Part shown: one piece after another, positions 7,201 through 32,048 of the stretch
Layout of the letters: every line of letters starts with the position of its first letter
Position numbering within the stretch: the first letter of the stretch is position 1
Assembly (NCBI GenBank): GCA_003116975.1
Contig: BGKB01000008.1
Span: 558,001 to 622,000, forward strand
From: Aurantiochytrium sp. KH105
Lineage: Eukaryota > Sar > Bigyra > Thraustochytrida > Thraustochytriidae
Length of the DNA stretch: 64,000 nt
Direction: 5' to 3'
Program-made: the position numbers and the translations under genes
The notes under the pieces: model-generated
What the model was told of the DNA's origin: nothing
Seen by the model: the letters and a program-made list of their open reading frames with translations, nothing else
The model's database searches: none

Positions 7201-10129
7201 CAGCCTTGTATCGCCTGCAATCGCACTTGAGGCAAGGCCCATACGAAACGCACGTTGGGCAAGCCCACGCACGGTGCTTTTCGCAAGCGCTTGTTTCCTG
7301 TCGCACGTATCGCAGAAAGTTGACATAGTTGACGGAGCCATCATTGCGGGCCCACCGTTTCACCACGAGGTCAATTTGCGAATCAGGCATTTGGTACATC
7401 ATCTGCCGCAGTCCCTTCGCAAATTCGTACCGTCGAATGCGCCCTGTCTTGCCCGGATCGAATTCCACAAAGGGAAGCTTGCTCCACAGGTGCGCTTGTT
7501 GGCCTTCCCCACTCTCGGAGCGAGGTGATGACGATGGTGAGGTGTCCGGTGTCCTTGACCTTGGATCCTCCTCTTCCTCTTCTTTACGGGACGCTTCCTT
7601 CTTGGCGTCGACGCCATCACTCTCGTTCTCCTCTTGGTTCGACGACAAACACGATGACGGCGACGGCGACGACGACGTGAACGACGACGATGATGATGAC
7701 GATGATGATGATGATGTCACTGAAGAACGACGACTCTGCTTGAGACGCCGGCGCAATGACGGAGGCGGGCCGCGGCGAATGCCCGCCAAGAGATCTTGCA
7801 TTCGCACGGCATCACGGTCCATCCAAAAACGGGTCGCCCCGTTCGTGAGAACAGGGTTCCCATAGTTGGTGCGCGGCAAGTAGCGCTCGTAAGAGGTGCG
7901 TGGACGTGCGTCGCCAAGCCAACGCCACGCCTTTTCAACAGCTTCGCGCTCCATATTCGCTTGAATCCGGACGCGGAAGCCGCGCCACGCTGCCTGTATC
8001 AGAACGATGCCGCTTTCGTCAATAACTTCCTTCACAAGCGACCTCCGAAAACATAAAAACGACTTGACACGGTACTGGATGATGCTGGCCGCACGATTTG
8101 TCCTCCGAATCTCAATCTTGATGTCTCGAATGCGGTTGCGGTAGATTTTAGCTCGCGCTGCGCGCTGGATCTGCGTCGCGCAAGCGTGAACATACTTTTC
8201 GTGCTCACGGACTTTGTACGCTCGCCAACGGGCAATGTACCGCTTCAAGTACCGCACGATGAGCAGATTCGCCCAGACCGCGTCTGCTTTCATGGCACGA
8301 AACTCAGCCACCACCTTGCGAGCCACGGTGATCAACCGCGTGGCAAACCCGCGATAAACGCGCTGGATTGTTCGCGCGGCGCGCATGCGTCGCATTTCGC
8401 GCCGTGTAATGTGACCCCGTGCGACACGCTGCAAGAGTGCAGTAGCCTTACGCTGTGCCGACCGAAACTTGATCACGTGCGCGCGCGCCTGGACTCTGCG
8501 CACTGTCTTTTGGATGGTGATGGCGGCAGCCCAGCGAATTTGCGTCACCACCGCGCGTCGGAGCGAAGCTGCTCGGTTTCGATGAGAATAGCCACGAAAA
8601 GCGCGCTGGATTCGCGTTGCAAACTCGTGACCAAAAAGAACGCGTCGCAGCGCTTTGCGCTGTTCGTGCATATGAGCAACAGCCAGTTGCATTGTCTTGT
8701 GTTTTCGTGTGAATTCGTCAAAATTATCCTTGACGCGCGCGGCAAAGTCGCGGCTGGCGCGAAGCGGCTGAAAACGCTTGGCCATTTGCACAAGCGGATT
8801 TGGCGCGCGAAAGCGTTTTCGTTCGCGCTCAGGCAGCAGCTGGAATTTGGCATTGCGTCGCGACTGCGCACGCTCGGCGATGCCCTCCCATTCAGAGTGC
8901 TCGAGGCGGTCTTCGTCCGGGCGAAGCGAATGCACACGCAATTCCTGTTTTTCTGGTCGCAAGGATCGCACACCAGGAGGCACCAGCAGGCCGCCAATGT
9001 AATTCCAGTCGGCGCGAGTGGCGTCTGGGGGTCTGCCCTTGATCACTGTGTAGTGAGACCGACAAAGTCCAAGTTCGTTGGCCTCGTGCAGCTTGACTGA
9101 TTCGCCTGGGTGCTTCATTTGACAACGCTGCGTATGATAGCCGCACGCCTTGCTAAAGCGATTGAGCGTCACATTGTCACACACAAGGTGATCGCCATGC
9201 GGTGCAATCTGCGTCCATCGGCACTTGACACCCGAGACAGCAGCGTTTGCCTCCTTGTTTGCGTCTGCGGCGGCTGCAAGTGCCAGCTCCTTGACCTGGG
9301 CCATCTTTGTCACAACCTCGGGACGTACCTCGTGCGTTCCTGGACATCGATGTCGTTCTAGCCGACGAGGCACCCTTCCTCTGTGCTTTTTATAGCATGC
9401 ATTGCACAAGGCGGCGTCGTTGGGGTGCCGGATGCGACTCACAGCCTGACCGGCATGGGCTTCGGAGTCTGAGCACACTTGAGCATGAAAAGCGCACCAT
9501 CGAAGTGTACCACCGAGAGGGCCAGAAAAGCGTGGATTCACACAGTAATAGTTGACACCGTCAACAGTGTCCTTGTACAAGCACGTGTCAATGCGGAGTT
9601 TAAGAGAGTTTTCGGCTCGCTGTCGCTCAAGTTGCGCTTGTTTCCTTTTTTCCCGCTGGCTCACTGAGTTTTTGGATTGACGCAAGACGGCCTGTTTGCG
9701 CTGGCGCGCTCGTACTTTCATATCATACCGTTTTCGTGCCTCGCGGTCCTTGTAAAAGAGGGATCTCGTGTCGAGTCGCCAGTCCCAGGCCTCGTTATCC
9801 TCATACTCCTTTTTCCATTTATTGGCGTGCGCAAGCTCGAATTCCTCATCGTCCTCTGCGATTTCCTCCGCCAGAGAGCGTAATCGTTTGTGCTGCTTGG
9901 ATAAACCTTGCTGCCGCTCGTTCCAGGCCAATTTTTGCTCTTGGTCGAGCGCTTTGCGCAAGAGAACGACGAGCTCACCGCGACTTCCTGATGTGTTTTG
10001 GAAACCTCGCGCGCGCAAGTGCAAACGGAGGTCGCGCAGGCTTAGCGTTTGCGGGTCAATGACGCTGCCCCACGGACCGCACTTTTCCACAAAGATGACA
10101 TTGTCCGCGTCTGCGTCCTCGCCTAGCAT
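4244..10129 (-). CDS. giant SAP / IQ-motif / zinc-binding protein
   Basis: A single-exon protein of about 1,961 residues. The start is the ATG at 10129; the frame stays open a few codons upstream but has no other ATG there. From the N-terminus: a SAP-like helix pair (about 27-62, SLRDLRLHLRARG), a long basic coiled coil, two related Cys/His modules (about 190-262 and 300-370, the second ending CRSHY..KGRPP), and about seven IQ motifs (500-735, for example RIQRAFRGY and TIQRVYRGF). Then come a poly-Ser stretch (about 800-830), a degenerate EF-hand-like segment, a compact Cys/His cluster (about 947-1000), and two C2H2-like fingers near 1566-1595 and 1655-1688 with a further Cys-rich patch. IQ motifs usually bind calmodulin or EF-hand light chains and SAP folds bind DNA, so a Ca2+/calmodulin-linked scaffold is plausible. 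The exact role is unknown. Confidence 0.85.
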   Translation of the reverse strand: MLGEDADADNVIFVEKCGPWGSVIDPQTLSLRDLRLHLRARGFQNTSGSRGELVVLLRKALDQEQKLAWNERQQGLSKQHKRLRSLAEEIAEDDEEFELAHANKWKKEYEDNEAWDWRLDTRSLFYKDREARKRYDMKVRARQRKQAVLRQSKNSVSQREKRKQAQLERQRAENSLKLRIDTCLYKDTVDGVNYYCVNPRFSGPLGGTLRWCAFHAQVCSDSEAHAGQAVSRIRHPNDAALCNACYKKHRGRVPRRLERHRCPGTHEVRPEVVTKMAQVKELALAAAADANKEANAAVSGVKCRWTQIAPHGDHLVCDNVTLNRFSKACGYHTQRCQMKHPGESVKLHEANELGLCRSHYTVIKGRPPDATRADWNYIGGLLVPPGVRSLRPEKQELRVHSLRPDEDRLEHSEWEGIAERAQSRRNAKFQLLPERERKRFRAPNPLVQMAKRFQPLRASRDFAARVKDNFDEFTRKHKTMQLAVAHMHEQRKALRRVLFGHEFATRIQRAFRGYSHRNRAASLRRAVVTQIRWAAAITIQKTVRRVQARAHVIKFRSAQRKATALLQRVARGHITRREMRRMRAARTIQRVYRGFATRLITVARKVVAEFRAMKADAVWANLLIVRYLKRYIARWRAYKVREHEKYVHACATQIQRAARAKIYRNRIRDIKIEIRRTNRAASIIQYRVKSFLCFRRSLVKEVIDESGIVLIQAAWRGFRVRIQANMEREAVEKAWRWLGDARPRTSYERYLPRTNYGNPVLTNGATRFWMDRDAVRMQDLLAGIRRGPPPSLRRRLKQSRRSSVTSSSSSSSSSSSFTSSSPSPSSCLSSNQEENESDGVDAKKEASRKEEEEEDPRSRTPDTSPSSSPRSESGEGQQAHLWSKLPFVEFDPGKTGRIRRYEFAKGLRQMMYQMPDSQIDLVVKRWARNDGSVNYVNFLRYVRQETSACEKHRAWACPTCVSYGPCLKCDCRRYKAGAHGGSGRAVCSCGHYVAMHCMIPKIHTGRTPGSESEALSKAELKRMLAPPAPAELPRTVQGTRLAPSQFRMHFAQHDLGVRAQTAAAGSSRLRGAARSMKSALRAQTPIEVLPAVNMSKRRATTAFQRLGERIIGDIAKESEQIVRELKQDGAWNNSVNPRDSFPGTARPQTSHRVPGVGEIERLEARPRPRTGAAAASSAAAANERFDGPRPSTTRLSSRRRRGSRRVAAAMAQNPLPTPVLDPKAAAYQEDQAKLEKAAIRAETCGPEALGSLLLQSAARPHTAAHVVRPWTREGRAMPDHLQNGVSPAYVKRVVRAESRRRELREELAKDELWSSPDDFARGFHVADPVPLIVNDNLRMETKTAPLYVDMLLALSSRSCGLLEDWPAFVAYVFQSFAFIDRHWRKLVYDIRTGTLNKLLPVSARMRAQVESQLEADPARAEMLDAALEQLGFYKSNSGPSGVPSGVPSSIAGVAGAAGAAGKRRRAVTAGGVEGEAAGTRKRRASVTLPLAVTPDRSTPESLLRSGNVDAFRIASDPHTQSLELDTLPEKERKALVEAIAVKDVYDLKRAPRMRPSLVHKHNERDIRKYSCTFPGCGQAFMTDRDAEAHVQQEHVGKFRLANGEHAVDHRLHAYWPRVAPWIPKSSKGVLQARAAAGIKALNDAGEEKRLADQEVRAYYPFCCSRQGCPERFHTKKELHAHEQTVHARPEQLKALVGEVAARSWIDLQGSLFHVPPSALPAGIRLPCCSKHWAMAQPRCEECVEVIARGVPVSPLHFFNSAVLHGELPLSGHTKTVVHVWNPRRGREHLGRVVALFSDRFERRFLAYRRFVLVGARDDASSSVTGRGRGSIEAGAEEAQEVAIEHDRTHVVELHHVRGTSIVLETTRRDYVKMKIDQELPQLPVLSQFPASRCEIEPGVFFTPPPAPEGDEELENVDAPLPGGGGGGIGGVASSGFEPLVKRICDVVVDRSGLFDRSKADF

Positions 10130-11038
10130 GTTTGTTGTCGCGCACTGCGAGCAAGACAAATCAATGCAATGGCAAAGGTGCGCGTCGCGTTATCGACAAG
10201 CACGCAAGGACGCGAGCAAGCCACCCGATTGGAATAAAATATTGGGCGCAGAATCGTGTGCTCTTTCCGCGGCGCTCAGCTGCGCTGCGACGCACTTCGC
10301 TACGGCCCGTACGGGCCGTGCGGGCCGGCGCCGCGCCGCGTCACGCCGACGCCACGGCTTACCTTAGCTTGTGAAGCTTGTGACTCTGATATTGTCGAAG
10401 GCGAGACGAGCAAAACGGTGTGTACTCTATGCTAGGCCTATGCTTGCAACGGTAGCTGCGGGCTGTCACAACGGACCCTTGCAATCTCTAAAGAAAGCAC
10501 CTTTGCGGTCCGCATCTCTGGGAGAGAGCTTCGCGCAGCTCTACGTTCGGAGAACGCTACTGCTTTGGCGACTGCTGTCATGGACGGATCATTAGAGAGC
10601 GCCCCGCCGTCTTCACCACTCGCATGGCCTTTTCTTCGCCACAGGCCAAGGCTGATAAGAACGAACGTTCTTTGACGGTCAAACGGAAAAATCAGTACTT
10701 GCTTCGCCGGCAAAACTAATTTAACCGGCGAAGCTCCTTTGGCAAGCCGGGGAAGAAGAAGCAAAGCCAGACCTACAAGAAGACGGCGACGACGACAAGA
10801 AGAAGAAGAAGAAGAAGAAGAAGGAGGAGGAGGAGGCAAGGCGAGGCGCGGCGCGGCGAGGCGAGGCGAGGCGGCGATACGCCGGAGCTTTTCGAGCGAC
10901 CCCAAGCCGCTCGTGACGTGGTGTCGCGCGAAAGGGTGCCTTCGCGGCGCCATTACGAGCCAGCCCGCCCCCTGAGCCGGAGAGAGTGTGCGACGTGACC
11001 ACGGAGGTTGCGTCGAGGGCGTGAACGAGGAGGAAAAG
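10130..11038. other. divergent intergenic region
   Basis: Separates the minus-strand giant gene from the plus-strand WBP2-like gene, so it should hold both promoters and 5' leaders. It contains a GAAGAA purine run (about 10796-10832) and GCGAGGCGAGG pentamers (about 10850-10875). The 78- to 220-codon frames here are arginine- or serine-rich repeat artefacts. No clear core promoter motif was found. Confidence 0.6.
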
Positions 11039-16236: not shown

Positions 16237-16881
16237 ATGCGCGTCTTTGTTCGATTCGGAGACGCAAAGGTACGTGGACGCAAGACTTGCTCGGGAGTGG
16301 AATCCTTGGAGAACGCGCGCAGTCGAACCGAGATGACTGAATAACTAACGACTTGTCACGCTGCGAAAATTGAAAATGACCACTTACGAAAACGTGGCGT
16401 CATCCTTTTGCTGCTCTCTTTTGCTGGGACGCAGGGTCTGGAGGTGAAGACCAGCCCAGAGGCCACGCAGGAGACGATTTTTGAGGCGCTCTCGAACCAG
16501 GCTGGTCTCCCTGCCAACGCCGTGTCAAGCCTCCGGCTGTCGTGTGGACGCGGAGTGCTCGAGGCAGGTTCGTCTCTGAGCGCGCAGGGCGTCGAAGACG
16601 GGTCAACGCTCGTTGTAGCCCCGCGCGCGCTTGGTGGCATGCAGATCTGGATCAAGACGCTGACCGGTCGCAAAACACCATACAACTTTGAGACCGATGT
16701 CAAGGTGATTGACGTCAAGCACGCGCTTCAAGAAAAGGAAGGTATTCAAGTCGACCAGATCCGCCTCATTTTCTCAGGCAAGCAGCTTGCTGACGACAAG
16801 CAGCTCGGTGACTACAACGTCAGTGCCGGCGCCGTCATTCATATGGTGCTCCAGCTCCGTGGTGGTGCTGCTACCCATTAG
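16237..16881 (+). CDS. tandem ubiquitin-like fusion protein
   Basis: Inferred as two exons, 16237-16269 and 16435-16881, giving 159 residues. Residues 1-79 form a divergent ubiquitin-like domain that starts MRVFVRFGDAK and ends PRALGG. Residues 80-155 are a second domain of exactly 76 residues starting MQIWIKTLTG and ending LQLRGG, followed by a four-residue tail AATH. In the second domain the ubiquitin positions L8, I44, V70, K6, K27, K33 and K48 are kept, K63 is Ala, K11 is Arg, and position 72 is Gln instead of Arg. Residue 72 is the position by which ubiquitin and NEDD8 activating enzymes discriminate (Ala in NEDD8). DYNVSAGAVIH resembles the NEDD8 segment as much as ubiquitin. Both GG ends could be cut by a deubiquitinase-type protease, releasing two modifiers, but this is inferred. 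Confidence 0.85.
16270..16434 (+). other. intron in the ubiquitin-fold gene
   Basis: A 165-bp inferred intron beginning GTACGT and ending GACGCAG, placed after 33 coding bases. It joins MRVFVRFGDAK to GLEVKTS and so completes the first beta strand of the ubiquitin fold. Reading through from the downstream ATG at 16408 would remove that strand. Confidence 0.8.
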
Positions 16882-17604
16882 TGGATGTCATGTCACGCTA
16901 CGTCACTTTCGCTCCGCATCCGCTCACGTCCCCGCTCGTGGTGCCCGCCCAACCACGGAGAGGGCTTTCCATCTCAACTCACAGTCAGCTCAGCCCACAA
17001 ACTGCCTATCCCCGCGAGCAACCACTGCCAGCCCCATCCCACCCACCCACCATTACGCACGCACGCACGCACGCACGCACGCACCACTAGGCCTAATTAA
17101 CCACCAACAACAATGACAACAGACAATTTTAATCACATGCAAGCCAATCTTGTTGCGTCGTCACAAGTTAGCCCCTACCTTATAAAATGCCTGCGCAACC
17201 CATTTTCAAGAATAACCGCCTAACGGCTATTTTCTTTCGGAACCCTCATCTCTCTCTCTCTGTCAAGTGGAGGCCCGCTCTCGGGGTGTCTGGGCTCGCT
17301 GCATCAACTTCGATTATGCATGGACATACGACTATAGCACACGCATTCACTGCTTGCGGGAAGAGTGCAAAAGAGCGCCTGTAACCACCTGCCCCATTTT
17401 GCGCGGCGTCTCGGTCTGGCCTTTCTCGACTGAAAGTCTTACTTGTTGTTGGTCTCAGGCAAGCAAACCCTTCGGCAGAACGCAAGGTCCGGGCGGCGGC
17501 CAAGGCGGTGCGTCTGCGTCTGCCTTTGCCTCTGCTTTTTAAGCTGCCGTCGCCGCTCGCTTCTGCAGCTGCTGACTCAGCAGCTGTCGCCACCTGTTGC
17601 GACG
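16882..17604 (+). other. intergenic region and 5' leader
   Basis: Holds the 3' end of the ubiquitin-fold gene, an ACGC run near 17057-17083 and the leader of the giant Tudor-repeat gene. The frame of that gene stays open upstream to 17443, but the added residues are low-complexity (CVCVCLCLCF) and a pyrimidine-plus-CAG acceptor-like site ends at 17459, so a 5' untranslated intron is possible. Confidence 0.5.
17181..17187 (+). promoter_or_regulatory. possible TATA box
   Basis: TATAAAA in a local AT-rich patch about 420 bp upstream of the ATG at 17605. The distance is long for a core promoter unless the leader is long or spliced. The call rests on the motif alone. Confidence 0.25.
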
Positions 17605-20600
17605 ATGAAGGACGTCGAGATGCTCGAGGCCGAAGCCATGCGCGTGCTTCAGCGCATTCGGGCCATACCCAAGACGCCAATACCAGCAGGCAAAAAGTCC
17701 AAGAACAGGACCATGACGGACGACTTCCGGCGCAACAGCCTCGAGAACGGCAACTACGTCGAGGAGGCTCGCGAAGAAGGGAGCTCTGCCCTTGCCCGCG
17801 TCAAGATGGGCCTCGATGCTGAGCAGGCCATCGCCGTCAGGGCATACGTGGATCGCACCTCTGACACGGTCATCACAGGCGCGTCTTCGCCACCCGCTTT
17901 GCGCGAGGAGCACGTCGCCCGCTTACGCGAGCTAAAAAACTGGGCGCAGGGTCGCAACGAGCAGCTTGACGACCTCATTGATATTGCTGTCAACGCATGT
18001 AAAAATGGAGTCGCCCCGCTAACAGGTGTCCGCTACGGCGCCGCGTTGCTAACACGCGGAGGCTTCGTTTACAGTGGGTGCAATATTGAGAGCAACGAAA
18101 CTACGCTGAGCACGAGCGCGGAAAAGATGGCCATCCTCAAGGCCATCAGCGCAGGTGAGAACGAGTTCGAGTGCATGGTCCTCACATGGGACCAAACCGA
18201 GAACCCTCGTTTCCCTATGCCCAGCGGCGCTTCGCGACAATACCTGGCCGAGTTTGGCGACTTTGAGGTTGTCCTTGTACGTGCAGACCCAGCGCGCACG
18301 CGGAAAGAGCTCACCACTGCAGAGCTTTTGCCACAGATGCCTTCGGCACGGGCAACGCAAGGCGACAGACACTCGCTTGGGTCTCCAGGGATGATTCGAG
18401 GACCTCGTGGGCGCAGTCCGCACTCATCACCAAGACGAAGCGCCCTGCGGATCACGGAGAAACTCCGCTCTCCAGGGCCCGCGCACGTACGCAAAGTCTC
18501 GGTGCCCGACATCCATGCGACTCCTGTGCGGGACTGGGCTGTGCGCCATGTGCTCACATGGCTTGATCAGGAATGCGACCTGCCCTCGTACAAGTACAAC
18601 TTTCAGGAGGCGAGCGTGAATGGGTCGATGCTCTTGCAACTCGCACCGCAAGATATGCAAGAGCTTTTGGGCGTACATCATCCTCTTCATTTGAGTAAAT
18701 TGCAAAAGGGATTGCAAGAATTGCGAAGACGCGAAGTCATGGAGTCTGGGGTCGAAGAAAATGACATGGCTGGCGTCGTCGATGCTCTGCGCGAGAATGA
18801 AATTGTGCTTGTGGCGCGTCTGAAGGAGGCTTTTGACCAGGCCGACACCCAAGGTCATCGCCTTTGCGGTGTTGAGCAGCTTCATGGTGCTCTGGCGGCC
18901 CTTGGCTTCGAGATCCCCAAGGAAGAGCTGCAAGCTTGGGTGGGCAGTTTTGGTCAGGGAGCGCCGGGACTCTCTTTTGCCCAGTTTGTGCAAGCGTTCT
19001 TTGCGTCGACGCGGGCATCCTCGTCAGAGCTTGGACTGGGCGCGACGAGCCCTCGACGCAGCGCGCCCGGAGAGGACAAGAACGATCGGCTTCTTTTGCG
19101 CGAGGACGGCCATGTTCGCTGCAGAGAGAACCGCGCGTATAGCTCTTGGGTTGAAGAGCAACGTGCGCAGTCTGCGCAACGAGTGCTAGGGGGCGGCACC
19201 GTGGGCAGTGATGCAGCAGACACCAAATTGCAGCGCGGGCGGAATCATGAGCTTGCTCTGTGGCTCAAGGGCGAAGATGGCGCAGAAACAAGCAACCGTG
19301 TCAAGTCTTTCATGCGCTTGCGCAAACGACCAGCCTTGGCGCTCAACATCTCGCAAGAAGTTGGCACCGAGGATTTTGCCCGACTTAAGCGAATCTTCGA
19401 CCGCGCTGACCGTGACCACGTGGGTGAAATCACGCGCCATGAGGCAGCTCGTGCACTCTCGCACACCGGCATGCGTGTGTCTGCAGTAGAGGTAGGACAG
19501 TACTTGCGGCTGCAAGGGCTGGATAGCGCGACGCCTCTCGACCTCTTTGAGTTCGCGCGCGCCTTTGCATACTTTGTCAAGCAGCGGGACATTGCGCTCG
19601 CAAGCGAAACACTCGAAAACCCGACGTTAGAGACTGTGGGCAGTCGAAACACCGTCGAAATCTCCTCCAGCAATAAACGCTGGCCTGTCGCCTATGACCC
19701 TACAGGTTTCTTGCTTAAAGCACGCAAACATCGCAAACACCATAAACAACGCAGGACGTCCAAGCGGCGTGGGCGATCTCCTCGTTCCAAACGCCGCGCA
19801 CGTAGGTCACGTTCGTGGTCCAGCAGTAGCGGGAGCTTTAGCAGCGAGAGCTCTGAGGATAGCAGTAGCGATTCTGCGAGCGGTAGCTCGGAGAGCGAGA
19901 CTGGCAGCTCAGAAAGCGACTCTGGGACCAGTAGCCAGAGCAGCGGCTCGGATAGCTCGCGAACGTCCACGTCCGCTTCAGAATCTGATTCTGACTCTGC
20001 GTCCACATCCAGTTCGGCTTCGAGCTCGCGGTCTCATCGTCGCCGCCGCAAAGAATTTCGATCACGCCATGGCAAGAAGTCAAAGACCGAAAAACGCAAA
20101 CCCGTCGTCATGGGTCGCCACGTCGTTCGCAAGGTGGAACGCGCGTTTGAAAAGCACCAAAAAAGTGGCAGCCGCGGTCAGCTTGCTATGAATAATGTCT
20201 TGATGGCTTTCAAGTCCATTCCTCGTAGCGGAAGGAGCAAGCCACTCCCTTCCGCGGATGAACTGCGTAACTACTTTCGCAAAGAGGACATTTACTACTA
20301 TGTGACTCGCAAGCAGTTTGTGCGCGCATATGCAAGATTGTGCTACGATGTTGTCGATGAAGATTACGAGGTCAAATCAACGTCTCGGTCTTCGTCCGCC
20401 CGACGACGTCGAGATGGGTCTGGCAGCGACAATGCGTCAGGAAGCGACGCGGAGACATGGCGAAAGGGCGACATTGTCGAAGCACGGGCACGAGGAAGCT
20501 CGAGCTGGCGGCGTGGTGAGCTGACTCGCGTCAATGCCGACCGCACAGTGAATATTCTCTACGATGACGGCGACACCGAACGCTCTGTTCGCCCGTCACT

Positions 20601-23600
20601 TCTTCGGCGCTACAAGCGGCGTGGGAGGCGACCTGATGTCCCAGAGCTTTCCTCTGGTTCCGACTCTGATAGTCGGGATCGAGGTCGCACGCGGTCTCGT
20701 GATGAAGATGATACTGTGCGACGCGGCGACCGCGTGGAGGCGCGCTTTAAAGGTGGCTCGAAGTGGTACAAGGGCCGGGTAACTCGTGTGGGTGCTGGCG
20801 GCAGAGCCTTTGATATTGATTACGACGACGGCGACAAAGAGCGCAGTGTTCCTGCGTCGAGGGTTCGACGACTCGACAGTGGATCCTCGAGAGATCAAGA
20901 TGATGATGCTCTTGCTGAAGGCGACCGCGTCGAAGCACGATACAAGGGCGGCTCCAAATGGTACAAGGGAAAAGTTGTTCGTGTTAATGCGGACGGAAGC
21001 TACAATATTGATTACGACGATGGTGACCAAGAGCGCCGAGTTGCCGCAAGCAAGGTCCGCAAGCTCGGCGGTAGCAATGGGGGTGGTCGAAGAAGTAGTC
21101 CTCGACGTGGTGGCCGAGACGATTTTGATACTGAAGATGATGGTGGTGGCGCACACCGCGAAGGCGACCGCGTTGAAGCTCGCTTTAAAGGTGGGTCGAA
21201 GTGGTACAAGGGCAAAATCACACGCGTCAATGCCGATGGTACCTTCAATATTGACTACGATGATGGCGATAAGGAACGTCGCGTTGCTTCGAGCAAGGTG
21301 CGCAAGCTTGGAGGTGGTGGAGGAGGTCGAGGGAGCCCCCGTCGTGGCGGACGTGACGATTTTGATACTGAGGATGATGCCGGTAGCAGTCTTCGCGAGG
21401 GTGATCGCGTGGAAGCTCGCTTCAAGGGTGGGTCGAAATGGTACAAGGGCAAGATCACGCGCGTCAACGCCGACGGTAGCTATAACATCGACTACGACGA
21501 TGGTGACCAAGAGCGTCGCGTTGCGTCAAGCAAGGTACGCAAGCTTGGCGGCGGTGCTGGAAGAGGAAGCCCTCGGCGAGGTGGTCGTGATGAATTTGAT
21601 ACCGAAGACGATGCTGGTGGCGCTTTACGCGAGGGCGATCGTGTGGAAGCTCGGTACAAGGGCGGGTCAAAATGGTACAAGGGCAAGATTTCACGCGTCA
21701 ACGCCGATAGTAGCTACAATATCGACTACGACGATGGTGACAAGGAGCGCCGTGTTGCAGCAAGCAAAGTCCGTAAAGTTGGAGGTGGAAGTCGAGGAAG
21801 CCCTCGTCGCGGCGCACGTGATGAATTTGATACTGAAGATGATGCCGGCGTCAGTCTTCGCGAGGGCGATCGTGTGGAAGCTCGGTACAAGGGCGGGTCG
21901 AAATGGTACAAGGGCAAAATTACTCGCGTCAATGCAGATGGCAGCTACAACATCGACTATGACGACGGCGACCAAGAACGTCGTGTCATTCCGAGCAAGG
22001 TGCGCAAGCTCGGCGGCGGTCGAGGGAGCTCTCGGCGAGGTGGCCGCGACGAATTCGACACCGAAGACGACGCAGGTGGCGCTTTGCGTGAAGGTGATCG
22101 TGTGGAAGCCCGGTACAAGGGCGGATCCAAGTACTACAAGGGCAAAATTAGCCGCGTTAATGCCGATGGAAGCTACAACATCGACTATGATGATGGCGAC
22201 AAGGAACGGCGTGTTGCTTCGAGCAAAGTTCGTAAGCTTGGTGGAGGTGGACGAAGCAGCCCTCGCCGAGCTGATCGTGGGGACATCGATACAGAAGACG
22301 ATGTTGGCGGCGTTCTGCGCGAGGGAGATCGCGTGGAAGCTCGGTACAAGGGTGGATCCAAGTGGTACAAGGGCAAGATTACTCGCGTCAATGCAGATGG
22401 CAGCTACAACATTGACTACGACGACGGCGACCAAGAGCGCCGCGTTGCATCAAGCAAGGTGCGCAAGCTTGGTGGCGGTGCTGGAAGAGGAGGAAGTCCT
22501 CGGCGAGGTGGTCGTGACGAATTTGATACCGAAGACGATGCAGGTGGAGTCTTGCGTGAAGGCGATCGAGTGGAAGCTCGATACAAGGGCGGATCCAAGT
22601 ACTACAAGGGCAAGATTAGCCGTGTCAACGCTGACGGGAGCTATAATATTGACTATGACGATGGCGACCAAGAGCGCCGCATTGCACCGAGCAAGGTGCG
22701 TAAGCTCGAAGGAAGCCCTCGTCGAGGCGGGCGGCCGAATTCGGATACCGAAGACGACGCCGGCGGAGTCTTGCGCGAAGGTGATCGTGTGGAAGCTCGG
22801 TACAAGGGCGGCTCCAAGTACTATAAGGGAAAAATTAGCCGCGTCAATGCTGACGGAAGCTACAATATCGACTATGACGATGGTGACCAGGAGCGACGTG
22901 TTGCGGCGAGCAAGGTGCGCAAGCTTGGAATGGGTGGAACGAGAGCAGGAAGTCCTCGTCGAGGCGGGCGTGATGAATTTGATACTGAAGACGACGCTGG
23001 TGGCGCTTTACGCGAAGGCGATCGCGTGGAAGCTCGATACAAGGGCGGCTTTAAGTGGTACAAGGGCAAAATATCTCGTGTCAACGCTGACGGGAGCTAT
23101 AACATTGATTATGACGACGGTGACCAAGAGCGGCGGATTGCACCAAGCAAAGTTCGTAAGCTTCAAGGTAACAAACCTGGGCGAGGCGGGCGACCAAGCT
23201 CGGATACGGAAGATAACGCCGGTGGCGTCTTACGCGAAGGCGATCGCGTCGAAGCTCGATACAAGGGCGGATCCAAGTACTACAAGGGTAAGATCAGCCG
23301 CGTCAACGCCGACGGTAGCTATAATATTGACTACGATGACGGCGACCAAGAGCGACGTGTCATTCCCAGCAAGGTTCGTAAGCTTGGTGGTGGTGGAAGA
23401 GGCAGCCCTCGACGAGGTGGTCGTGACGAATTTGATACCGAAGACGATGCCGGTGGAGTCTTGCGTGAAGGCGATCGCGTGGAAGCTCGATATAAGGGCG
23501 GATCCAAGTACTACAAGGGCAAGATTTCCAGGGTCAACGCTGACGGAAGCTATAATATTGACTACGATGACGGCGACCAAGAGCGCCGCATTGCACCGAG

Positions 23601-25119
23601 CAAGGTTCGTAAGCTTGGAGGAAGTCCTCGACGAGGTGGCCGTGACGACTTTGATACCGAAGACGATGCCAGTGGCGCTTTGCGCGAAGGCGATCGAGTT
23701 GAAGCTCGGTACAAGGGCGGATCTAAGTACTACAAGGGCAAGATTTCCAGGGTCAACGCTGACGGCAGCTACAATATTGACTACGATGACGGTGACCAAG
23801 AGCGACGTGTCATACCAAGCAAGGTGCGCAAACTTGGCGGCGGCGGCGTGAGAGGTAGCCCACGTCGCGGAGGCCGAGATGACGTTGATACGGAGGACGA
23901 TGCTGGCGGCGCCTTGCGTGAAGGCGATCGTGTCGAAGCTCGGTACAAGGGCGGATCCAAGTATTACAAGGGCCAAATTTCCCGGGTCAACGCTGACGGC
24001 AGCTACAATATTGACTACGATGACGGCGATCAAGAACGGCGGGTCATACCAAGCAAGGTGCGCAAACTTGGCGGCGGCGGCGTGAGAGGTAGCCCACGTC
24101 GCGGAGGCCGAGATGACGTTGATACGGAGGACGATGCTGGCGGCGCCTTGCGTGAAGGCGATCGTGTGGAAGCTCGGTACAAGGGAGGATCCAAGTTCTA
24201 CAAGGGCAAGATTTCTCGTGTCAACGCCGACGGTAGCTACAACATTGACTACGATGACGGCGACCAAGAGCGACGCGTCATTCCCAGCAAGGTTCGTAAG
24301 CTTGGTGGTGATGGCGGAAGTGGCGATTTTGGTCGGGGCAGCCCTCGTCGAGGCGCACGACCGAGTTCAGATACGGAAGATGACGCCGGTGGCGTTTTAC
24401 GCGAAGGCGATCGCGTTGAAGCTCGGTACAAGGGTGGATCCAAGTACTACAAGGGGAAAATTAGCCGTGTCAACGCTGACGGCAGCTACAATATTGATTA
24501 CGATGACGGCGATCAAGAGCGACGCGTTGCATCGAGCAAAGTCCGTAAGCTCGGAGGAAGTCCGCGCCGCACTGGACGGCCGAGCTCGGACACGGATGAT
24601 GACTTTGGGGCAAAATTCCGGGAAGGCGACCGTGTGGAGGCTCAATTTAAGGGCGGGACCAAGTATTACAAGGGCATCATTACTCGCGTCAACGCCGACG
24701 GAAGCTGCAACATTGACTACGACGACGGCGACCAAGAGCGTCGCGTTGCGCCGAGCAAGGTTCGCAAATTGGGCGATACAGGGTCAAGTTCGCGACAGTC
24801 AGTCCGGCCGAGCTCTGCCAACGTTGAGGAGAGCTCGAACTTGCGTGTGGGAGACCGCGTCGAGGCGCGCTTTCGGGGCCAGAACCAATGGTATCCGGGA
24901 TCGATATCCTGTGTGAACCGCAATGGAACGTACGACATTGCCTATGATGACGGCGACGCGGATCAGTCACTGAGTCGATCATTTATTCGAAAGATTGAGA
25001 CGAGTCCGAGGTCAGGTTCTCCTCGTCGGTCTGGTCGTGTTGTTCAGAGTCGGACGAGTTTCTCGCGGGACGATAGCAGTGCGGGCCGGCAGCTTCGACG
25101 CGGCAGGTCGGATCTTTGA
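17605..25119 (+). CDS. pseudo-cytidine-deaminase / SAM / Tudor-repeat giant
   Basis: A 2,504-residue single-exon protein starting at the ATG at 17605. Residues about 120-230 match the tetrameric cytidine deaminase fold (GAALLTRGG, SGCNIESNE, SAEKMAILKA, PSGASRQYLAEFG). The catalytic glutamate is kept (E173), but the three zinc cysteines are Ser (171, 207, 210). A SAM domain follows at about 306-373, then EF-hand-like segments (390-462 and 588-658), a basic and Ser-rich stretch (705-808) and another EF-like segment (835-915). The C-terminal 1,500 residues are 20 Tudor- or Agenet-like units of the type GDRVEARYKGGSKWYKGKI...DYDDGDQERRV, joined by Arg/Ser/Asp-rich linkers. Tudor-type folds bind methylated Lys or Arg, so a chromatin or scaffold role is possible. 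The deaminase domain is probably a catalytically dead binding module. The combination is not one I recognise. Confidence 0.9.
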   Translation: MKDVEMLEAEAMRVLQRIRAIPKTPIPAGKKSKNRTMTDDFRRNSLENGNYVEEAREEGSSALARVKMGLDAEQAIAVRAYVDRTSDTVITGASSPPALREEHVARLRELKNWAQGRNEQLDDLIDIAVNACKNGVAPLTGVRYGAALLTRGGFVYSGCNIESNETTLSTSAEKMAILKAISAGENEFECMVLTWDQTENPRFPMPSGASRQYLAEFGDFEVVLVRADPARTRKELTTAELLPQMPSARATQGDRHSLGSPGMIRGPRGRSPHSSPRRSALRITEKLRSPGPAHVRKVSVPDIHATPVRDWAVRHVLTWLDQECDLPSYKYNFQEASVNGSMLLQLAPQDMQELLGVHHPLHLSKLQKGLQELRRREVMESGVEENDMAGVVDALRENEIVLVARLKEAFDQADTQGHRLCGVEQLHGALAALGFEIPKEELQAWVGSFGQGAPGLSFAQFVQAFFASTRASSSELGLGATSPRRSAPGEDKNDRLLLREDGHVRCRENRAYSSWVEEQRAQSAQRVLGGGTVGSDAADTKLQRGRNHELALWLKGEDGAETSNRVKSFMRLRKRPALALNISQEVGTEDFARLKRIFDRADRDHVGEITRHEAARALSHTGMRVSAVEVGQYLRLQGLDSATPLDLFEFARAFAYFVKQRDIALASETLENPTLETVGSRNTVEISSSNKRWPVAYDPTGFLLKARKHRKHHKQRRTSKRRGRSPRSKRRARRSRSWSSSSGSFSSESSEDSSSDSASGSSESETGSSESDSGTSSQSSGSDSSRTSTSASESDSDSASTSSSASSSRSHRRRRKEFRSRHGKKSKTEKRKPVVMGRHVVRKVERAFEKHQKSGSRGQLAMNNVLMAFKSIPRSGRSKPLPSADELRNYFRKEDIYYYVTRKQFVRAYARLCYDVVDEDYEVKSTSRSSSARRRRDGSGSDNASGSDAETWRKGDIVEARARGSSSWRRGELTRVNADRTVNILYDDGDTERSVRPSLLRRYKRRGRRPDVPELSSGSDSDSRDRGRTRSRDEDDTVRRGDRVEARFKGGSKWYKGRVTRVGAGGRAFDIDYDDGDKERSVPASRVRRLDSGSSRDQDDDALAEGDRVEARYKGGSKWYKGKVVRVNADGSYNIDYDDGDQERRVAASKVRKLGGSNGGGRRSSPRRGGRDDFDTEDDGGGAHREGDRVEARFKGGSKWYKGKITRVNADGTFNIDYDDGDKERRVASSKVRKLGGGGGGRGSPRRGGRDDFDTEDDAGSSLREGDRVEARFKGGSKWYKGKITRVNADGSYNIDYDDGDQERRVASSKVRKLGGGAGRGSPRRGGRDEFDTEDDAGGALREGDRVEARYKGGSKWYKGKISRVNADSSYNIDYDDGDKERRVAASKVRKVGGGSRGSPRRGARDEFDTEDDAGVSLREGDRVEARYKGGSKWYKGKITRVNADGSYNIDYDDGDQERRVIPSKVRKLGGGRGSSRRGGRDEFDTEDDAGGALREGDRVEARYKGGSKYYKGKISRVNADGSYNIDYDDGDKERRVASSKVRKLGGGGRSSPRRADRGDIDTEDDVGGVLREGDRVEARYKGGSKWYKGKITRVNADGSYNIDYDDGDQERRVASSKVRKLGGGAGRGGSPRRGGRDEFDTEDDAGGVLREGDRVEARYKGGSKYYKGKISRVNADGSYNIDYDDGDQERRIAPSKVRKLEGSPRRGGRPNSDTEDDAGGVLREGDRVEARYKGGSKYYKGKISRVNADGSYNIDYDDGDQERRVAASKVRKLGMGGTRAGSPRRGGRDEFDTEDDAGGALREGDRVEARYKGGFKWYKGKISRVNADGSYNIDYDDGDQERRIAPSKVRKLQGNKPGRGGRPSSDTEDNAGGVLREGDRVEARYKGGSKYYKGKISRVNADGSYNIDYDDGDQERRVIPSKVRKLGGGGRGSPRRGGRDEFDTEDDAGGVLREGDRVEARYKGGSKYYKGKISRVNADGSYNIDYDDGDQERRIAPSKVRKLGGSPRRGGRDDFDTEDDASGALREGDRVEARYKGGSKYYKGKISRVNADGSYNIDYDDGDQERRVIPSKVRKLGGGGVRGSPRRGGRDDVDTEDDAGGALREGDRVEARYKGGSKYYKGQISRVNADGSYNIDYDDGDQERRVIPSKVRKLGGGGVRGSPRRGGRDDVDTEDDAGGALREGDRVEARYKGGSKFYKGKISRVNADGSYNIDYDDGDQERRVIPSKVRKLGGDGGSGDFGRGSPRRGARPSSDTEDDAGGVLREGDRVEARYKGGSKYYKGKISRVNADGSYNIDYDDGDQERRVASSKVRKLGGSPRRTGRPSSDTDDDFGAKFREGDRVEAQFKGGTKYYKGIITRVNADGSCNIDYDDGDQERRVAPSKVRKLGDTGSSSRQSVRPSSANVEESSNLRVGDRVEARFRGQNQWYPGSISCVNRNGTYDIAYDDGDADQSLSRSFIRKIETSPRSGSPRRSGRVVQSRTSFSRDDSSAGRQLRRGRSDL
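20458..25000 (+). repeat. 20-unit Tudor-like coding repeat array
   Basis: Twenty tandem units of about 195-245 bp (65-82 codons) inside the giant gene. The first two and last two are most divergent; the central units differ mainly in linker length and in Trp/Tyr/Phe at the aromatic position (SKWYKG, SKYYKG, SKFYKG). Two neighbouring units (about 23809 and 24043) share more than 120 bp of near-identical DNA at a 234-bp spacing, indicating recent duplication or conversion. The repeats keep other frames open, which explains long spurious frames on both strands. Confidence 0.9.
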
Positions 25120-28056: not shown

Positions 28057-28450
28057 GCCTAGGCTCTAGGTCTGGACCTCGGCTGAGTGGCCTCGAGCTG
28101 CAGCTTGGTTGCGCACTACAGCTTGGATTTCCTCACGTACGACCCACCACCACTCACTCACCCAACCGGCCACCTCCCCTGCCACCCCGAGTAGGAAGAG
28201 GAAAAGGAGAGGGGTGGGGCAATTAAAAATATTTTTTATTTTCTTCTGGTCGACAAAATGGATGAGCATCATTTGCACTACAACTTGTGACATTGATTGT
28301 CCATTTCGCATGCCTCGGGCGTGGACTGACTTGATAGATGCAAGGCATTGCCGCCAGTCTTGAGGGCAAGCAAGCAAGCAAATAAGCATGAAGATGGGCA
28401 AATCCCGATTCCTTGCTTGTCCAGGCTGAATAGGCGATCAAGTCGACACG
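28057..28450 (+). other. short intergenic region
   Basis: Holds the 3' end of the dehydrogenase gene and the leader of the first LPMO-like gene. AT-rich patch near 28220-28245, and a GCAAGCAAGCAA run at about 28365-28381. Nothing else recognised. Confidence 0.55.
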
Positions 28451-29818
28451 ATGCTTGGAGCTCGCGAGCGGTCCTCCCAACGTGGCAATGTCAGAGGTTG
28501 GCATGTGAGCGTCTGGCTGGCGATCGCGCTTGCGATGGCGACTGCTCAATGCGCAAGCGCAAAGGGATTCATCTCCTTTCCACCTTCGCGCAAGATGATG
28601 GTCCTCGAAGCCGGCAGCCAGCCGCTGCCCAACAATGCAGGTGGCGCGGAACTCGAGTTTCACAAGGGCCACGGCCTCTGCGGCGCCCTAGGAAAAGATG
28701 CCGACCTTGACGTTAACGCTACGATCTCGCCTAATGCCTTCTTTACCGAAGGAGACGTCATTGACGTCGACGTGACACTCGAGTCGCATCGCAAAGGCCA
28801 CTTTGAGTTTAGGCTGTGCTCGCTTGACGCCAATGACTTCTCACAGGAGTGCTTGAACGAGCACGTGCTGGAGTTCGACGCTACTTTTACCGCTGCGAGC
28901 TACTCTGGACAAATGGAGGACGCCATGCGGTGGTCTCCGGCAGATCTCTTGGAAAACGAGGCTTGCAAGAGCGACGACGGCATGCCGTTGGGGTCGTGTT
29001 GCAACCATGGAGGGGCGTGTTCAGATGAAGCGCAAAACAGACACCGGTGGGCTGTGCCGTCGTCTGCAGCGGGTCCGATGTATACGATGCGTCTCGTGCT
29101 GCCAAGGGGTGTGAGGTGTGAGCATTGCGTTCTTCAATGGTTCTACCAAACGGGAGACGGCCGTGGCAGCTTTCACGGGTATCCCGAAGGGTTCTGGGAC
29201 TGCGCCGACGTAGCAATTCGAGAAAAGACTGTCTCGGTCTCAAGTGAAGTGCAGCGGCGCAAGCTGTTGGCGATACTCCCGGCAAGCGCAAAAGCACGAG
29301 AGCTGGGCAGCGATGATAACGATGTTGAGGTGGGGATCGATTTATCACTTTTAGGCGAAACAACATCGGCTCCCACAAACGCGCCTAGCTTTGCATCGAC
29401 ATCCGCTCCGACAACGGATCAAGCGCAAACGCCATCGTCCAACGAAACTTCGATTGATGGCGCAGTCCCGGATGACGGAAGTGGGTCGGCGAACGTTGAT
29501 GACGATGAAGATACAAGTGAGGATGATCCTACGAATGCAGCGGCCACTGTATCTACGGCGCTTATCGTAGGCGCTTCGGTGTCAGCAGCAGGGGCCGTTT
29601 TTATGCTTTTCGCACTTTTGCGCATGCGCCACAAGAGGTCGCATGGCGTCCTAGAAGCTATTCCTGTTTCGTTGCATGCGGCAAGACCAGTCAGCGCGTA
29701 TCCGAGCTCTCTATCAAGGTTACGCGGGTTCTTTTCGAGGTCTCGAGCGACGGACAGACACGCCTTCACGGCCAAGGAAGTCGAGGCGGTTGTGATTGAG
29801 AGTCCGGTAGACCATTGA
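28451..29818 (+). CDS. membrane-anchored LPMO-like protein, copy 1
   Basis: A 455-residue type I membrane protein. A signal peptide (1 to about 37, ending QCASA) precedes an LPMO-like ectodomain (about 38-258) with the landmarks GFISFPPSR, KGHGLCG, HRKGHFEFRLC, CVLQWFYQTGDG and FWDCADVAI. These match the Chitin_bind_3/AA15-like fold. The mature N-terminus should be Lys-Gly where copper-active enzymes have His-Gly, so the histidine brace is missing. A Thr/Pro/Ser-rich acidic linker follows, then a transmembrane helix (about 366-392) and a cytosolic tail ending in AKEVEAVVIESPVDH. The ectodomain probably binds a polysaccharide at the cell surface rather than oxidising it; this is inference. It is the first of three tandem paralogues and nearly identical to copy 2 over the ectodomain only. 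Confidence 0.85.
   Translation: MLGARERSSQRGNVRGWHVSVWLAIALAMATAQCASAKGFISFPPSRKMMVLEAGSQPLPNNAGGAELEFHKGHGLCGALGKDADLDVNATISPNAFFTEGDVIDVDVTLESHRKGHFEFRLCSLDANDFSQECLNEHVLEFDATFTAASYSGQMEDAMRWSPADLLENEACKSDDGMPLGSCCNHGGACSDEAQNRHRWAVPSSAAGPMYTMRLVLPRGVRCEHCVLQWFYQTGDGRGSFHGYPEGFWDCADVAIREKTVSVSSEVQRRKLLAILPASAKARELGSDDNDVEVGIDLSLLGETTSAPTNAPSFASTSAPTTDQAQTPSSNETSIDGAVPDDGSGSANVDDDEDTSEDDPTNAAATVSTALIVGASVSAAGAVFMLFALLRMRHKRSHGVLEAIPVSLHAARPVSAYPSSLSRLRGFFSRSRATDRHAFTAKEVEAVVIESPVDH
28556..29205 (+). repeat. 650-bp homogenised segment, copy 1
   Basis: Collinear with 30639-31288 (offset 2,083 bp) with six mismatches counted by eye and no gaps. The match begins at the signal-peptide cleavage site and stops at the end of the ectodomain. 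Flanking signal peptides, linkers and tails are not alignable at the DNA level. Confidence 0.9.
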
Positions 29819-30560
29819 AGAATCATTCCTTGACATTGATAACGATTTTTTTTTCTTTTCTCCTTTGGCGCAATGGTTACTACCTGATCCTCTCTTTGGG
29901 GGGGGGGGGAGCGGGCGGGCAGAGTGATTGGCTGGTCTGCCATGGGTTACGTTTTCCTGTAAAAATTGGTCAGGCAAACAGATGCCAATCTCGCGGAACT
30001 ATGCATTCCTCGCTTGTCTCGCCGGTCTGGTCACTCCGGAAACGCGATAGAGGCCTCGGGCCGGGCGGCCGGCAAGAGTCAGGACACGTTCCAGCGATCG
30101 TGGATAGCTTTGACGTGGCTTTTCTCCATTACTCCACGCAACTCTTTGCTTCCTTTCCATTGGCAGCGGCCTGCACCTGGGACCATTTCATTTTCCTCTG
30201 TTCCCTGCCTTTAGCTAGAAGGACTTTGTGCTGTTTTAATTTCACAATCACCGCACCGGACCTATACGTGACTTTGAAAGACCTGTGACCGAAATGGTGT
30301 GTACTATATCACACGTGCAAAAGACTGGATTTCGGGTTGGAAGCGGCTGCGGCCGCTTGCGAGACAGTGCGAGATTGTAAGATTTTTTACGCGGGCGAGC
30401 GAGCGAGCGAGCAATTCAAGCGCGCAGCCTGGTCCACTTTTGTATGGGTCCGACGATTCTTCCGGGCAGCGGGGGACTCGCGTATTTTGGCGTGTTGACC
30501 CTGGAGGGCGCGGAGTCGGCAAACCAGAATTGAAGGCTAGGCGAAGGAGAACCGAGGCAG
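29819..30560 (+). other. intergenic region between LPMO-like copies 1 and 2
   Basis: Contains a T-rich patch after the copy 1 stop, a ten-base G run near 29900, GCGAGCGAGCGA units near 30391-30412 and the leader of copy 2. The 157-codon frame at 29815 shows no domain and is not called. Confidence 0.55.
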
Positions 30561-32048
30561 ATGCGTCGGCGCCTGCAGCGCGTGCGCGCAGCTGCTGGAC
30601 TGCTGGGCGTGCTCGCTCTGGCCGGCGCGCATCATGCTAGCGCAAAGGGATTCATCTCCTTTCCACCTTCGCGCAAGATGATGGTCCTCGAAGCCGGCAG
30701 CCAGCCGCTGCCCAACAATGCAGGCGGCGCGGAACTCGAGTTTCACAAGGGCCACGGCCTCTGCGGCGCCCTAGGAAAAAATGCCGACCTTGACGTTAAC
30801 GCTACGATCTCGCCTAATGCCTTCTTTACCGAAGGAGACGTCATTGACGTCGACGTGACACTCGAGTCGCATCGCAAAGGCCACTTTGAGTTTAGGCTGT
30901 GCTCGCTTGACGCCAATGACTTCTCACAGGAGTGCTTGAACGAGCACGTGCTGGAGTTCGACGCTACTTTTACCGCTGCGAGCTACTCTGGACAAATGGA
31001 GGACGCCATGCGGTGGTCTCCGGCAGATCTCTTGGAAAACGAGGCTTGCAAGAGCGACGACGGCATGCCGTTGGGGTCGTGTTGCAACCATGGAGGGGCG
31101 TGTTCAGATGAAGCGCAAAACAGACACCGGTGGGCTGTGCCGTCATCTGCAGCGGGTCCGATGTATACGATGCGTCTCGTGCTGCCAAGGGGTGTGAGGT
31201 GCGAGCATTGCGTTCTTCAATGGTTTTACCAAACGGGAGACGGCCGTGGCAGCTTTCACGGGTATCCCGAAGGTTTCTGGGACTGCGCTGATATTGCAAT
31301 CGCTCGAGAAGAAGACTTGCTAGACTCAATCGAGGCAGAACAGATGAAAAGACGCTTAACTGTTGATGACCAGCTTGCTCAAAGAAGTACCGAAACCGGC
31401 TGCTGGTCTGCAGTTGGGACTGATCACACATTTTGCAGGACATATAAATGCAATCAAAAGCACATTAATGATGGACTCTGCACGACAGATGATCCTTATG
31501 ACGAGCAAGGAAGCTCTGAAGCCCCAACGGCATCGCCAACAGCGGATAGCACTTCGGAAGGGGATGAAAGTGAAGGAGAAAATTCACAAGGACCAACTTG
31601 GTCGCCATCAACGCCAGCGCCGACGATTGAACACAATTCTACAGAACAAGAAGAATCTGGGGCACCAACCCCAGCGCCAACACTTGCTGGAAAAGTCAAT
31701 GATGATGATTCTGGTAAAAACAGCGATCAAGACGAGGAGGACTTTGAATCAGATGATCGTCAGGACTCGTCAAAATCCATGATTCTCGGGGCATCGGCTG
31801 CAGCAGTTGGGGCCGTAGCAGTTGCTGCCAGTGTATTCTATGTGCATCGAAACAAGCACACCCATGTGCGAGAAGCTTTACCGGTTGCAATGCACGCAGT
31901 CGATGTCAATGATGACGACGCACCTCCGAAGAGTGGAGCCTTGGGCAAACTACGGCGAAGTATTTTTAGGACACCACGCAGCGATGCACAGAACGTCTTT
32001 ATGGCCAAAGAGGTCGAAGCTGTTGTCGTAGCAAGTCCCGTGCCGTGA
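30561..32048 (+). CDS. membrane-anchored LPMO-like protein, copy 2
   Basis: A 495-residue paralogue of copy 1. The signal peptide is different (MRRRLQRV..., ending HHASA), but the ectodomain (about 27-245) is almost identical, again starting Lys-Gly in place of His-Gly. Beyond it is a small Cys module absent from copy 1 (GCWSAVGTDHTFC..., about residues 280-310, five cysteines). Then come Thr/Pro-rich linker repeats (APTASPTA, PAPTIE, PTPAPT), a transmembrane helix (about 405-430) and a tail ending AKEVEAVVVASPVP. The different signal peptide, linker and tail around a common ectodomain suggest the ectodomain was copied into or homogenised between two genes. Surface polysaccharide binding is inferred; enzymatic LPMO activity is unlikely without the N-terminal His. 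Confidence 0.85.
   Translation: MRRRLQRVRAAAGLLGVLALAGAHHASAKGFISFPPSRKMMVLEAGSQPLPNNAGGAELEFHKGHGLCGALGKNADLDVNATISPNAFFTEGDVIDVDVTLESHRKGHFEFRLCSLDANDFSQECLNEHVLEFDATFTAASYSGQMEDAMRWSPADLLENEACKSDDGMPLGSCCNHGGACSDEAQNRHRWAVPSSAAGPMYTMRLVLPRGVRCEHCVLQWFYQTGDGRGSFHGYPEGFWDCADIAIAREEDLLDSIEAEQMKRRLTVDDQLAQRSTETGCWSAVGTDHTFCRTYKCNQKHINDGLCTTDDPYDEQGSSEAPTASPTADSTSEGDESEGENSQGPTWSPSTPAPTIEHNSTEQEESGAPTPAPTLAGKVNDDDSGKNSDQDEEDFESDDRQDSSKSMILGASAAAVGAVAVAASVFYVHRNKHTHVREALPVAMHAVDVNDDDAPPKSGALGKLRRSIFRTPRSDAQNVFMAKEVEAVVVASPVP
30639..31288 (+). repeat. 650-bp homogenised segment, copy 2
   Basis: Partner of 28556-29205. The six differences are two near the 5' end and four in the last 160 bp or so, leaving a central stretch of about 350 bp or more without change. 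Only one difference changes the protein (Asp to Asn). Confidence 0.9.

Follow-up and report, generated by a model that had tools for sequence, protein, structure and literature searches.

A cytidine deaminase domain with serine at all three zinc-ligand positions, fused to a SAM domain and a Tudor-like array in Aurantiochytrium

Serine is a poor zinc ligand, and the half of dimeric cytidine deaminases (CDAs) that has a "broken active site" binds no zinc. According to the part of the source drawn on here, that half lends residues to the active site of its partner (PMC6686228). ADAT3 is described, in an equally partial source, as a subunit that has the deaminase fold and whose role is structural only (PMC7713142), and a kinetoplastid CDA-like protein is joined to a CCCH motif, with no loss of zinc ligands named in the portion of the paper considered (PMC12064671). 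The metal site of one enzyme, CDA_F14, has been altered by mutation: in the sections used here, mutants with two or three zinc-binding cysteines changed to histidine were completely inactive, EDTA abolished activity, and a mutant combining Cys53 to His with Arg56 to Gln had some activity left (PMC9897663), so that one altered ligand alone need not kill the enzyme. Docking in the same excerpts places Asn42, Glu44, Gly54, Glu55, Cys88 and Tyr24 beside the substrate, with Ala46 and Tyr48 from another subunit also near it and Phe126 of another subunit lining the pocket (PMC9897663). For the T. brucei CDA, the extract at hand lists Phe42, Asn60, Glu62, Ala71 and Phe158 as substrate-binding residues, and Ser40, Arg117, Gln118, Glu122, Leu154 and Tyr39 as subunit-contact or quaternary residues (PMC6686228).

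The gene described here lies in the window, a stretch of 64,000 nucleotides (C8:558001-622000) within a 76 Mb assembly (Table 1). Its frame runs from stop to stop over 17434-25119, with an ATG at 17605, a stop codon that ends at 25119 and no internal stops, and, as read from genomic DNA alone, it gives no sign of an intron. A second copy is found on contig C218, where the flanking aligned blocks are syntenic and 93-95% identical, and we take this copy as the other haplotype. Both copies are open (2504 aa on C8, 2517 aa on C218), and the codons for S171, E173, S207 and S210 are AGC, GAA, AGC and TCG in both. Because the diverged contig has the same three serine codons, an assembly or sequencing error behind them is ruled out, which answers an objection that the first-pass annotation had foreseen. 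The search of the genome with aa 1-250 gave two matches, which are the two contigs of the gene itself, and no other paralogue.

Table 1. Features of the gene, in positions of the window
Feature	Position	Strand	Basis or remark
Whole gene, one open frame, 2504 aa	17605..25119	+	zinc-less CDA, SAM, EF-hand-like pairs, Ser/Arg-rich stretch, 20 Tudor-like repeats
Tetrameric-type cytidine deaminase domain, zinc ligands lost (aa 118-245)	17956..18339	+	
Ser171 (AGC) replacing zinc ligand Cys53 (B. subtilis numbering)	18115..18117	+	Cys in 86/87 aligned relatives, His in 1
Glu173, retained catalytic glutamate Glu55	18121..18123	+	Glu in 87/87 relatives; within one of two search patterns
Ser207 (AGC) replacing zinc ligand Cys86	18223..18225	+	Cys in 87/87 aligned relatives
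Ser210 (TCG) replacing zinc ligand Cys89	18232..18234	+	Cys in 85/87 relatives, Ser in 2/87
SAM domain (aa 310-374)	18532..18726	+	Pfam 9e-11; closest solved relative liprin-beta-1 (3tad_C, 1.3e-17)
EF-hand-like pair 1 (aa 394-474), degenerate loops	18784..19026	+	EF-hand_7 E 0.06, sub-threshold; 28% identical to pair 2
EF-hand-like pair 2 (aa 583-668)	19351..19608	+	calmodulin-type matches from 1.3e-5; loop scan
Basic, then Ser/Arg-rich low-complexity stretch (aa 700-860)	19702..20184	+	composition of aa 666-860: Ser 29%, Arg 14%
Candidate third EF-hand-like pair (aa 862-950)	20188..20454	+	inspection only; fragment without Pfam match; aligns poorly with pairs 1 and 2
20 Tudor-like repeats (aa 955 to about 2468)	20467..25008	+	repeat count and Pfam

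Other frames of the window deserve mention in their own right. Two adjoining LPMO_10 frames on the forward strand (28430-29815 and 30534-32045, E 1.1e-10 and 2.3e-10) form a tandem pair in a eukaryote; this family of lytic polysaccharide mono-oxygenases is more usual in bacteria. A short forward frame at 16408-16878 has a divergent ubiquitin at its end (Pfam 3e-23), preceded by what looks, by inspection, like a second ubiquitin-like unit, and a long frame on the reverse strand (4247-10189) combines IQ motifs with a GH3-type domain (E 2.3e-9).

The cytidine-deaminase fold that had been assigned to the N-terminal part of the protein is borne out by several comparisons. Homology to deaminases is far above chance in the comparison with structure chains (1jtk, E 7e-18), and the matches to the NCBIfam profiles PRK05578 (E 2.8e-18, 66.2 bits) and TIGR01354 (E 4.1e-16, 59.4 bits) are strong, though under the curated equivalog cut-offs of 74 and 113.65, respectively. 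Pfam dCMP_cyt_deam_1 scores 27.1 bits with the N-terminal fragment and 22.7 bits with the whole protein (cut-off 25), and dCMP_cyt_deam_2 is under its cut-off. By a combined test of sequence and fold similarity, the domain resembles tetrameric CDAs over its whole length. A structure prediction also recovered the deaminase fold, from an alignment of 57 canonical CDAs that favors that fold; these 57, taken from 80 loci, are prokaryotic true CDAs with 32-44% identity to the domain. For residue counts we used 87 relatives, of which 80 came from among 574 confirmed loci (among the matches listed) and 7 are plasmid-borne CDAs of the 39 records matched. The patterns used to scan for the loci contain GCN[IV]E or AE[RK], and neither includes a zinc cysteine; agreement at Asn160, Glu162, Ala172 and Glu173 is partly built in because the patterns include those residues. 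Two scans of viral contigs for relatives of the domain gave 5 and 90 pattern matches, none of which was confirmed.

None of the three zinc-binding cysteines (CxE ... PCxxC) is present in the domain; the serines and the retained glutamate are exactly where they had been reported from the letters alone. Twenty-six of the 35 columns that are at least 90% conserved in the relatives are kept, some of them within the search patterns. The nine changed columns comprise the three ligands, Lys174 in place of the arginine next to the ligands (Arg56, B. subtilis numbering), positions 136, 139, 140 and 144 within the Y-x-P-Y-S-x-F-x-V segment, and Pro246 in place of the C-terminal phenylalanine (Phe125). 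Ligands are thus over-represented among the changed conserved columns (3/3 vs 6/32, P = 0.013, in a test framed after seeing the data). Their loss is not part of a general loss of cysteine, because the domain retains three others (Cys132, Cys159 and Cys190), which rules out general depletion as the cause for the domain; the whole protein is cysteine-poor, with 9 in the regions counted. The first-pass annotation had also argued that the same residue appearing three times points to selection. This argument is poor, and we set it aside as weak evidence, since, of the seven missense changes that one step from either cysteine codon can produce, two give serine. A BLOSUM62 estimate (P = 0.008 for three equal residues, P = 0.0004 for all serine) is not relied upon because it ignores burial and codon access.

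Selection was assessed from the haplotypes. Across the 128 codons of the CDA domain, C8 and C218 differ by 8 silent and 0 replacement changes (binomial P = 8e-6, from site counts of S 89.2 and N 294.8, about three quarters replacement sites, with equal mutation rates assumed and one pair of haplotypes compared). Because of this imbalance, we conclude that the domain is being kept as it is in this species, and the earlier claim of maintenance under selection stands on this ground. Counts of silent and replacement differences are 5 and 0 in the SAM domain, and 10 and 5, 7 and 0, and 9 and 1 in EF-like regions 1, 2 and 3, respectively. There are 3 of each kind in the N-terminal 117 residues, and 69 silent and 18 replacement differences in aa 1-955 overall. 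The best explanation for a domain in this state, and one that we consider reasonably likely, is that it is a pseudoenzyme whose task within a scaffold is to associate or to dock; what was once an enzyme now probably serves as one of the units from which a scaffold protein is built.

What remains of the pocket bears on whether the domain could do more. In addition to the changed columns listed above, Val142 stands for Phe/Tyr24, Asn164 for Ala46 and Thr166 for Tyr48. The equivalents of Asn42, Glu44, Ala54 and Glu55 are kept, and the same residues occur in 87, 87, 85 and 87 of the 87 relatives. Within the substrate-binding set Phe24, Asn42, Glu44, Ala54 and Phe125, mapped by motif and spacing from the partial source, three of five are kept and both phenylalanines are lost; of six subunit-contact or quaternary positions mapped in the same way, four are kept, and the Ser40 equivalent is a mild change to Thr. 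Read from these residues, the domain has preserved the ribose side of its pocket (Asn42, Glu44) along with some of the subunit surface, and it has lost the metal and much of the pocket's base side. The first-pass annotation had called the surrounding motif intact and concluded that the domain binds a ligand, which is too strong because the equivalents of Phe24, Ala46, Tyr48, Arg56 and Phe125 are changed (to Val, Asn, Thr, Lys and Pro). A metal-free sensor, whose pocket would bind a (deoxy)nucleoside or nucleotide through Asn160 and Glu162 and report to the SAM/Tudor scaffold, is possible because these two residues, Ala172 and Glu173 are kept. The four kept residues leave room for a bound ligand, with the qualification that the search patterns contain them, and the lack of any amino-acid difference in the domain between haplotypes also fits such a role. 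We nevertheless regard a sensor as rather unlikely, given that Phe24, Phe125, Tyr48 and Ala46 of the pocket are all replaced and that the pocket would have no zinc-bound water to meet the base.

Another reading is that the domain is a recently inactivated relic that now drifts, carried within a useful protein. In the tree, the domain is placed beside a Chloroflexota sequence (93/79), on a branch of 2.68 changes per column against a median end branch of 0.48; two other rows were also flagged as long. We draw no conclusion about origin from this tree because the branch is far too long and eukaryotic CDAs were left out. The length of the branch fits fast change after the loss of catalysis, and it is what a drifting relic would lead one to expect. 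The haplotypes already speak against drift, as no replacement accompanies the eight silent differences, and so does the retention of most of the highly conserved columns, some of which lie within the search patterns. A relic is therefore improbable.

Clear matches in the genome to TIGR01354 or to a bacterial CDA are limited to this gene and one other, each on two contigs, in searches that intron-split genes, or genes overlooked in the initial pass, could escape. The other CDA has intact ligands (HAE, PCGHC) plus a second half; it looks like a dimeric-type enzyme and presumably serves pyrimidine salvage. The zinc-less domain matches the N-terminal half of this two-domain CDA weakly (blastp E 5.4e-5) and gives no match to the C-terminal half, and the profile TIGR01355 aligns to the domain at positions 153-243 of 283 (E 3.5e-6). 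These searches bear on whether the domain might be a regulatory partner, a dead subunit that, in the manner of ADAT3 with ADAT2, oligomerizes with another CDA and changes how active that enzyme is or where it is located. ADAT3, a subunit whose deaminase fold serves structure alone as far as the cited extract goes (PMC7713142), offers a precedent, and the subunit-contact residues, as listed in the partial T. brucei source, are partly kept. The searches just described, however, turned up no intact tetrameric-type CDA in the genome, and we consider such a partnership very unlikely. It is barely credible that the domain is still an active enzyme, one that uses the retained Glu173 and the three serines of the former metal site for a different metal site or chemistry, given that serine binds zinc poorly and that the pocket phenylalanines are lost. 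A CDA with two or three zinc cysteines changed to histidine is, moreover, dead in the sections of the CDA_F14 paper used here (PMC9897663).

The genome holds another deaminase with a broken metal site. On C95, at about 59.9-61.0 kb (with matches on C186, 37.9-38.9 kb), a two-domain deaminase has an intact first domain (HAE and PCxxC) and a second domain that reads ATSE and PCLMS; by inspection, this protein looks guanine-deaminase-like.

The remainder of the architecture that had been proposed for the protein, SAM plus EF-hand-like regions plus 20 Tudor-like repeats, was recovered by Pfam, structure matches and the repeat count. Pfam SAM_1 scores 42.4 bits in the fragment and 38.2 bits in the whole protein, above the cut-off of 23, and the closest relative of this SAM domain in the genome itself belongs to a protein that also carries IQ motifs and ankyrin repeats. 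EF-hand-like pair 2 has one near-canonical loop at aa 602 (D-x-D-x-V-G-x-I-x-x-x-E), with valine at position 5; the loop scan found no canonical 12-residue EF-hand loop with oxygen ligands at positions 1, 3, 5 and 12. On the same pair, Pfam EF-hand_6 scores 25.6 bits in the whole protein and 20.0 bits in the fragment (cut-off 25), and the pair resembles the giant protein on contig C70 (33% over 70 residues, E 2.4e-4). A scan of viral contigs for relatives of the SAM and EF parts gave 7 pattern matches, none of them confirmed. The Ser/Arg-rich stretch, located between EF-like regions 2 and 3, resembles, by inspection, an RS region with a nuclear-import-like basic cluster.

In the whole protein, Pfam Tudor_5 matches 19 stretches (E 6.3e-132, 429.8 bits, cut-off 31), and the repeats are spaced by 73-83 aa in 17 of 19 cases. 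Of the 20 stretches that follow the repeats, the last of which is the C-terminal tail, 17 have an Arg/Gly-rich or SxRR motif and 17 have an acidic motif. All 20 repeats have W, Y or F before a conserved Tyr/Arg, and Tyr before DDGD; an aromatic residue thus stands at the cage position expected from other Tudor domains in every repeat. The nearest solved chains to the repeat, four weak profile matches (0.0027 to 0.01), are PHF20 Tudor entries and CG7008. The make-up of the array differs between C8 and C218, with 309 gapped alignment columns and, from aa 956 on, 52 amino-acid differences; a repeat that recombines might well behave in this way.

The same type of Tudor repeat, with up to about 60% identity, occurs in other giant proteins of the genome (C29/C39 and C70/C274). 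The C29 stretch combines a Tudor array with several EF-hands. At C70:9801-16000, a giant open frame of 8945 aa joins three PUB-domain stretches to Tudor repeats and EF-hands, and a similar frame of 6656 aa lies on C274; PUB domains are known p97/VCP binders. Neither a CDA nor a SAM domain is among the families shown for these giants, which were 25 of the 30 in the C29 stretch and all 18 in the C70 stretch. The window protein is akin to these other EF-hand and Tudor-array giants, and the Tudor/EF-hand/PUB set looks like one of intracellular scaffolds rather than plain chromatin readers. The suggestion that the protein acts on chromatin is weakened by this company, in which the same kind of repeat stands with EF-hands and, in one case, with PUB domains. 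A zinc-free CDA fold acting as a metal-independent sensor, with SAM assembly controlling the grip of the 20-fold Tudor array on methylated nuclear partners, is distinctly improbable; if true, it would connect pyrimidine pools directly with chromatin or RNA granules.

As a docking pseudoenzyme, the domain would derive from an ancestral tetrameric-type CDA domain that, to judge from its residues, is now unable to hold zinc or deaminate, and it would be retained, folded but without catalysis, within a large intracellular scaffold. It may act through its surface, by self-association or partner docking; self-association is an option because four of the six contact positions listed in the partial source are kept. 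The SAM domain could add further association, and the Tudor-like array might give many weak partner contacts, possibly with methylated Arg or Lys. Ca2+ sensors may be the ancestors of the EF-hand-like pairs, whose role would now be mostly structural. Against a reading of the CDA domain as structural only are the kept equivalents of Asn42, Glu44, Ala54 and Glu55, which a structural domain does not obviously need.

Our search of the open-licence literature, covering titles and the starts of abstracts, found no description of a protein with such an architecture among the matches listed, and found 0 papers on labyrinthulomycetes and cytidine deaminase. Within that literature, and among the matches listed, three things seem to be new: that a tetrameric-type CDA has lost all of its ligands, which units it is fused to, and that it is maintained. 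The principle of a catalytically dead deaminase-fold half or subunit is not new, as dimeric CDAs and ADAT3 illustrate in the partial sources cited. The domain provides a clean natural case of a metalloenzyme domain that is missing every metal ligand and yet is seemingly guarded by selection, permits a direct test of how a CDA fold is used without zinc, and adds a module to the Tudor-array giant proteins of a microbial eukaryote.

Among the known systems, the other EF-hand and Tudor giants of the genome share the Tudor repeat type and EF-hands with the window protein, but have EF-hands above the Pfam cut-off (C29, C70) and PUB domains (C70). Liprin and SARM1 provide the best solved relatives of its SAM domain, in a comparison that covered the SAM domain. 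With tetrameric CDAs (TIGR01354/PRK05578; the B. subtilis, mouse and human enzymes), the domain shares the whole fold, the catalytic glutamate, the NxE motif and the RQ after the last ligand. It differs from them in having serine for all three zinc cysteines, in the changes at Phe24, Ala46, Tyr48, Arg56 and Phe125 and in parts of the Y-x-P-Y-S-x-F-x-V segment, and in being fused to a scaffold that exceeds 2200 residues. The C-terminal domain of dimeric CDAs (E. coli/Arabidopsis type) likewise retains the deaminase fold without a working metal site of its own. The window domain, in contrast, is closest to tetrameric CDAs and only weakly like the catalytic half of the genome's two-domain CDA; its best match to a tetrameric CDA and the lack of a match to the C-terminal half hint at a separate loss, alongside the TIGR01355 alignment given above. 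ADAT3, as far as its partial source describes it, is also an inactive deaminase fold that has been kept. Yeast ADAT3 lost the glutamate and kept zinc, whereas the window domain kept the glutamate and lost the zinc ligands (PMC7713142), which makes each the mirror image of the other.
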